DNA from: Alphaproteobacteria bacterium
GTDB lineage: Bacteria; Pseudomonadota; Alphaproteobacteria; RS24
DNA length: 32,327 bases
Direction of reading: 5' to 3'
Assembly: GCA_949498175.1 (NCBI GenBank)
Contig: CATDDF010000095.1
Coordinates: 1-32,327 of the forward strand
Position numbers and translations under genes: made by a program. Shown here one piece after another: positions 11,667 to 14,865 of the stretch (its first letter is position 1; each line of letters begins with the position of its first letter). The notes beneath the pieces are model-generated. The model was not told the origin of the DNA. It worked only from the letters and a program-made list of their open reading frames with translations, and did no database searches.

Positions 11667-11945
11667 ATGAGCGGCCAATCCGTTACCGCTTCACTGACAC
11701 TCGCCAATCAGCGCGGCTTGCATGCCCGGGCCTCAGCCAAATTCGTTCAATTGGCGGAACGTTTTGAGGCCGCCATTAGCGTGTCGAAAGATGGCGAGAG
11801 CGTAAACGCCACCTCGATTATGGGCTTGATGATGCTGGGCGCCGCTTGTGGCACACAAATCACGGTCAGCGCCAGCGGTCCGCAGGCCGAGGAGGCGCTG
11901 ACCGCATTGACCGCATTGGTGGTCGATAAATTTGGCGAAGATTGA
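11667..11945 (+). CDS. ptsH: Phosphocarrier protein HPr
   Basis: 92 aa; active His in GLHARASAKFVQLA and Ser46-type region NATSIMGLMMLGAACG. Confidence 0.92.
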   Translation: MSGQSVTASLTLANQRGLHARASAKFVQLAERFEAAISVSKDGESVNATSIMGLMMLGAACGTQITVSASGPQAEEALTALTALVVDKFGED

Positions 11946-11956
11946 CCGTTCTTAAT

Positions 11957-11976
11957 ATATAAAGAAATCTTTATAT
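11957..11976. promoter_or_regulatory. Perfect 20-bp palindrome, candidate operator upstream of ahcY
   Basis: ATATAAAGA-AA-TCTTTATAT, 9-bp arms, ~60 bp upstream of the ahcY start. Confidence 0.6.
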
Positions 11977-12019
11977 CTATCTTGCTTGGTTGCGGGCAAG
12001 CTGCTACAAAGCCGTCTAA

Positions 12020-13327
<1,308 letters not shown>

Positions 13328-13362: not shown

Positions 13363-14865
13363 ATGGCGGAACGTATATTTACCTGTGACAGTGCCGATGA
13401 AGCGGCCAGCGCGCGCGTGGCGGGTTGGCTGGCCGCTGCGCTTGATGCGCCATGTCTGATTTTTTTGCACGGCGATTTGGGGGTCGGTAAAACCGCCTTT
13501 GCACGCGGTTTCATTCGCGCCCGTTGCGGCCAGGCGACGCAAGTGCCAAGCCCCAGCTTTGCCCTTATCCAGCCTTATGAAGCCGCCGTACCGATTTGGC
13601 ATGTCGACCTTTACCGCCTTGCCGAGGCAGAAGAGATTGATGAATTGGGTCTCATTGAGGCTTTAACCGACCATATATGTTTGATTGAATGGCCGCAAAA
13701 CGGCGCGGGCGTGCTGCCCGAAGCCGATATTCACGTGACGCTTGATATGGCGGCTAATGGCCGCCGCATTTCCATTGAAGCGGATGCGGACATATTGGCA
13801 GCGCTCACCAAAAGTGCGGCGCGCGAGGCCGCCTTACAGGATTTTCTCGCCGCCGCGGATTGGCACCAGGCCGGCCGCCAAGCGTTGGCCGGTGACGCTT
13901 CGACGCGGCGTTATGAGCGGCTGCAAACCGAGACCGGCAGCGCCGTATTGATGGATTGGCAGGAAATGCCCGACGGGCCGCCGGTCTATGACGGCCAGCC
14001 CTATAGCCGCGTCGCCCATTTGGCCGAAGCCATGCCGCGCTTTGCCGATATGGTGAACTGGCTGCGCGATATCGGTCTTGCCGCGCCGAGGCTTTATGCC
14101 TGCGACCGCGACCGAGGCTTTGCCGTGTTGGAGGATTTCGGCGACCGCCATTTGGCCGCTCCGCAAACCGACGAAAAGCCGATTGACCGCACGGTGTTTT
14201 ATTATGAAGCGGTGGAAAATCTTTTGCATCTGCACCGGCAAACCCCGGCCGATTTTTTGCCGGTCTATGATGGTGGCGTGCAAGCCGTGGAGGCCTCGCT
14301 GTTCACCGATTGGTTCTTGCCATGGCGCGGCGTTGAGATTGACAATACCGCCAAGCAAGACTGGTACGATATATGGCACAGGCTCGGCGACGGTTTAATG
14401 GCCGATGAAAAGGTTACGGTGCTGCGCGATTACCACTCGGTCAATCTTCTCTGGCGCGAGACCGCCCAAGCCAAGCAGCGCATCGGGCTGATTGATGTGC
14501 AAGACGCGCTTAAAGGCCATGCCGCTTATGATCTGGCGGCGCTGATCCATGATGCGCGCATTCATGTCAGCGCGGCGCATCAAGATATGATGCTGAGGCA
14601 TTATTTGGATAAGCGTTTCGGCGATGATAAAGCAGCGCGCCAGGCTTTCACCAATGCTTTTGCCGTCACTTGCGTGCAGCGCAATATGAAAATTGCCGGC
14701 ATTTTCATCCGCCTTGCCGAACGCGACGGCAAGCCGCGCTATTTGACCCATATGCCGCGCATTATCGGCCATATCAAAGCGCATTTGGCAACACCGGTTT
14801 TGCAGCCTGTCACCGCTTGGTTGGCGCATTATGCACCGCGCGCGCTGGAGCTTGACGATGATTAA
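13363..14865 (+). CDS. Fusion protein: N-terminal TsaE (t6A biosynthesis ATPase) and C-terminal aminoglycoside-phosphotransferase-like sugar kinase (AmgK-like)
   Basis: TsaE part: FLHGDLGVGKTAFARGFIRA, SPSFALIQPYE, HVDLYRL, LIEWPQNG. APH/AmgK part from ~residue 165: GDASTRRYERL, VLEDFGDRHL, VLRDYHSVNLLW, GLIDVQDALKGHAAYDLAALIHDAR. Confidence 0.9.
   Translation: MAERIFTCDSADEAASARVAGWLAAALDAPCLIFLHGDLGVGKTAFARGFIRARCGQATQVPSPSFALIQPYEAAVPIWHVDLYRLAEAEEIDELGLIEALTDHICLIEWPQNGAGVLPEADIHVTLDMAANGRRISIEADADILAALTKSAAREAALQDFLAAADWHQAGRQALAGDASTRRYERLQTETGSAVLMDWQEMPDGPPVYDGQPYSRVAHLAEAMPRFADMVNWLRDIGLAAPRLYACDRDRGFAVLEDFGDRHLAAPQTDEKPIDRTVFYYEAVENLLHLHRQTPADFLPVYDGGVQAVEASLFTDWFLPWRGVEIDNTAKQDWYDIWHRLGDGLMADEKVTVLRDYHSVNLLWRETAQAKQRIGLIDVQDALKGHAAYDLAALIHDARIHVSAAHQDMMLRHYLDKRFGDDKAARQAFTNAFAVTCVQRNMKIAGIFIRLAERDGKPRYLTHMPRIIGHIKAHLATPVLQPVTAWLAHYAPRALELDDD

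Follow-up and report, generated by a model that had tools for sequence, protein, structure and literature searches.

A probable SahR operator ahead of ahcY in a small-genome aquatic alphaproteobacterium

S-adenosylhomocysteine (SAH) is a toxic by-product of methylation that is cleared by the product of ahcY, and in other Proteobacteria SAH-responsive control of SAM-cycle genes, ahcY among them, is exercised by the SAH and SAM-SAH riboswitches. The closest described relative of the locus considered here is the SahR regulon. According to the text of Leyn et al. (2014, PMC4239095), the motif of SahR is a 20-bp palindrome, its core regulon consists of sahR, ahcY, metH, metF and metK, and SahR occurs in each alphaproteobacterial group that was studied. 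The same text cites the SahR of Desulfovibrio alaskensis (Deltaproteobacteria), likewise an ArsR-family, SAH-responsive regulator of SAM-cycle genes; it also states that the motif differs slightly between the alpha and delta groups, and the likeness of our system to that of D. alaskensis is one of description. In Ensifer aridi, deletion of sahR raises the activity of the sahR promoter (PMC8877191). The lineage that we examine lies outside the groups named in the text of PMC4239095, and the nearest named relatives of the genome are metagenome genomes that carry the labels PS1 clade, Rhodobiaceae, Phyllobacteriaceae or plain Alphaproteobacteria; a search of a genome collection with this SahR returned only seven close relatives.

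The site in question was found in a contig of 32,327 nucleotides, the whole of which is referred to here as the window. It occupies the 92-bp gap between ptsH and ahcY, an AT-rich intergenic patch (Table 1), and was confirmed letter for letter as ATATAAAGAAATCTTTATAT, in which perfect arms of 9 bp, ATATAAAGA and TCTTTATAT, stand around AA. A reading of the sequence alone had called it a perfect 20-bp palindrome; its sequence, place and arms were as described, but the AA centre is 2 bp of non-palindromic sequence, and strictly the site is an inverted repeat. That reading had also attributed operators of this type to SahR, and the attribution proved correct: Leyn et al. describe a palindrome of this length together with its core regulon (PMC4239095), and the ahcY and sahR sites of Sinorhizobium meliloti agree with it too. 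We matched the site to the published motif through the description in the text and through our own comparison with S. meliloti.

Table 1. Features of the ptsH-ahcY region, in window coordinates
Feature	Position	Strand	Basis
ptsH, HPr family phosphocarrier	11667..11945	+	TIGR01003, 94.9 bits (cut-off 47.9)
SahR operator (almost certain), 9-bp arms and 2-bp centre	11957..11976	.	sequence, genome scan, cross-genome conservation
probable ahcY -35, TTGCTT, 5 bp past operator	11982..11987	+	conserved spacing and TTG
probable ahcY -10, TACAAA, 17 bp past -35	12005..12010	+	cross-genome conservation
ahcY, S-adenosylhomocysteine hydrolase	12038..13327	+	TIGR00936, 661.6 bits (cut-off 497.6); N-termini of relatives

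The ahcY reading frame is open from 12020, the start given in the list of open reading frames; its likely start is the ATG at 12038, which has a Shine-Dalgarno-like GAGGAGG in front of it and at whose methionine the proteins of relatives also begin. This start places the operator 61 nt upstream of the gene, close to the 60 bp first estimated. Upstream, family matches identify chvI, chvG, hprK, a PTS IIA gene and ptsH, the last of the run. The gene order around ahcY is shared with S. meliloti (CP090106.1), where chvG-hprK-IIA-ptsH-ahcY are arranged as they are here and the equivalent gap holds ATATAAAGACCTCTTTATAT, with arms identical to those of our palindrome. Every one of the 22 family genomes checked has an HPr gene immediately ahead of ahcY, and three of seven genomes from other families have one nearby; the ptsH-ahcY neighbourhood is, judged by these gene orders, old. 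In Brucella, ahcY is co-transcribed as well with the upstream bvrRS and PTS genes (PMC9491525); here, a search of the ptsH-ahcY gap gave no terminator, and read-through into ahcY from the PTS genes is possible by analogy. The earlier proposal that ahcY is separately regulated therefore stands in part: the gene has an operator and probably a promoter of its own, but its independence from the genes upstream is put in doubt by the Brucella precedent and by the missing terminator. Downstream of ahcY, a single open reading frame at 13363-14865 encodes a TsaE domain (residues 11-143) fused to an AmgK-like sugar kinase domain (residues 154-493).

The host genome (1.68 Mb, 92.6% complete) was scanned by sequence pattern with mismatches allowed. 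At up to three mismatches, ATATAAAGANNTCTTTATAT occurs in exactly two places genome-wide, both of them exact, and the reversed control pattern in none. The second site, ATATAAAGATATCTTTATAT (contig C18:8567-8586), is fully symmetric and lies 10 bp ahead of sahR, the first gene of sahR-metF-metH, so that the regulator has a site before its own operon and the other site fronts ahcY. Because sahR, metF and metH are contiguous, two operators suffice for the regulon. Weaker places with two mismatches numbered four, for a total of six including the two true sites against a control count of three; once the true sites are subtracted, the total is little above the control. Two of the four were inspected: the one on contig C42 is within a methylmalonyl-CoA mutase-like coding sequence, and the one on C88 overlaps the opening codons of an unrelated small open reading frame. 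A 1-mismatch site common to another genus was dropped, as it is part of a polynucleotide phosphorylase-like coding sequence. The expectation of further copies near methionine-cycle genes was borne out for metF and metH, through the operon site, but not for metK: the site scan gave no SahR site before metK in this genome or in its genus, in which respect the system differs from the alphaproteobacterial regulon given in the text of PMC4239095. In another genus of the same family, imperfect SahR-like sites, ATATAAGGAAAGCTTTATAT and ACATAAGGAAAGCTTTATAT, do precede metK (loci L184 and L178; genomes G013 and G017), at equal distance in both, about 100 bp ahead of the GHPDK codons. It is possible that metK was gained by, or lost from, the regulon within the family.

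An ArsR-family gene of SahR type, which the sequence-only reading required of the genome, is indeed present. Its product of 314 aa combines an ArsR helix-turn-helix (residues 14-57) with a class I methyltransferase domain (residues 153-249), both placed by sequence families, and is the sole match to PF01022 (HTH_5, ArsR) in the genome. metF begins one base past the sahR stop and metH eight bases past metF. The DLGTGTGR motif of the methyltransferase domain is nearly invariant among SahR orthologues; as a SAM/SAH-binding signature it would fit SAH sensing, and this C-terminal domain most likely binds SAH. The protein shares 47% identity across 98% with its S. meliloti counterpart, the ArsR protein encoded beside metF, whose gene (1023 bp, the length of the published E. 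aridi sahR; PMC8877191) has a 3-mismatch site, ACATAAACATATCTTTATGT, in front of it and metF behind. Sphingomonas parapaucimobilis has the exact symmetric site ahead of sahR-metF, and its methionine synthase genes lie a short way downstream. The resemblance to the alphaproteobacterial SahR regulon extends to the 20-bp palindrome, the ArsR-family regulator, the targets sahR, ahcY, metF and metH, and a site for probable autoregulation.

We gathered the sequence ahead of ahcY and of sahR in as many as 61 genomes, ranging from the genus out to other families of the class. Co-occurrence was counted in the 49 alphaproteobacterial genomes in which the sequence upstream of ahcY could be read, a site being any match within three mismatches. 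As the first reading would require, the palindrome is conserved ahead of ahcY in relatives: it is present in 31 of 38 genomes with SahR and in none of 11 without (Fisher p about 1e-6). With one genome per family the figures are 10/16 and 0/10 (p = 0.0026), which are the safer ones because the genomes are related. Shuffled ahcY regions hold a site in 0.06% of cases (mean chance per region 0.0006). Upstream of sahR the site occurs in 38 of 42 genomes. Seven SahR-positive genomes (G015, G034, G038, G041, G043, G051 and G054) have neither a recognisable ahcY site nor a riboswitch match upstream of ahcY; in these, either the operator would have diverged or ahcY would have dropped from the regulon.

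These distributions bear directly on whether the palindrome could be something other than a SahR site. That it is a chance inverted repeat is suggested by its setting in an AT-rich gap; none of 100 dinucleotide shuffles of the window matches it at up to three mismatches, and across ahcY upstream regions its columns hardly vary, unlike most of those on either side. Coincidence is practically inconceivable, and is already refuted by site conservation that tracks SahR across genomes. This tracking also weighs against a different regulator, a thought encouraged by the many regulators that bind AT-rich palindromes; the sole twin of the site fronts sahR, no other HTH_5 ArsR protein is encoded in the genome, and such an assignment is very unlikely. 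A role as RNA structure, be it as 5'-UTR hairpin, as riboswitch or as terminator of the ptsH transcript, is highly improbable. The strand does form an 8-bp stem, but its fold is only moderately better than that of shuffles (z = -1.62), and Rfam gave no match, either for the window or for the ahcY and metK loci tested, the search upstream of ahcY including the SAH and SAM-SAH riboswitches. Together with the lack of a terminator, this led us to reject all three RNA readings. A palindrome of identical type lies inside the sahR promoter, and since the predicted ahcY promoter is downstream of the palindrome, a transcript from that promoter would not contain it. The palindrome is almost certainly a SahR binding site, and we put at about 0.94 the probability that it is an operator of SahR, an ArsR-type dimer that would repress ahcY and sahR-metF-metH until SAH binds.

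The two operators are not placed alike. At ahcY the predicted conserved promoter has the form TTGCnn-N17-TAnnnn, and the spacing and TTG of its -35 are kept across the family and several other families. In 21 of 22 family genomes, and in 5 of 10 from other families (S. meliloti among them), the operator ends 4-5 bp before TTGnnn-N17-TA, an arrangement seen at 1 in 1210 control offsets. A general promoter scan did not call the predicted ahcY promoter. At sahR the operator fills the spacer between the predicted -35 and -10, directly after TTGAC(A) and before an A/T-rich -10; this placement holds for most members of the genus and for several related genera. A dimer bound within this core promoter would block it. 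Only some 7 bp separate the predicted sahR -10 from the ATG (contig C18, L002:1480-1530, beyond the window), and the sahR mRNA may be leaderless or near-leaderless in this genus. The contrast in placement between these predicted promoters is the part of our result that was not simply to be expected.

Our model takes SAH as ligand and repression as mode from published work on SahR. When SAH is low, SahR would occupy both operators, one in the sahR-metF-metH core promoter and the other directly upstream of the ahcY -35. Accumulating SAH would bind SahR and release it from the DNA, whereupon AhcY would be made for SAH clearance, and MetF and MetH for methionine regeneration. Repression from the ahcY operator position is the default reading. 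The difference in placement could instead mean that SahR represses only at sahR-metF-metH, where its site sits within the TTGAC(A)/-10 spacer, and acts at ahcY as an activator or as a modulator from upstream, since a fixed 4-5 bp before the -35 suits an activator, or a repressor using upstream contacts. We consider this unlikely: SahR has been described as a repressor (PMC8877191), the footprint of an ArsR dimer is perhaps wider than the 20-bp core and could reach the ahcY -35, and the promoters are predicted ones, none of which the general scan called. It is similarly doubtful, though conceivable, that two conserved geometries under one regulator set SAH clearance apart from methionine regeneration in the sense or threshold of their control.

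As an almost certain SahR operator, the palindrome adds an ordinary case to a known regulon, here in an aquatic alphaproteobacterium that has been little studied. The genome-wide test confirms what had been predicted from raw sequence, and the SahR regulon is extended to a small-genome aquatic lineage of the Alphaproteobacteria. In this compact genome the SAM cycle would be run by one regulator and two operators, and the conserved difference in their placement opens the sign of control at ahcY to direct test.
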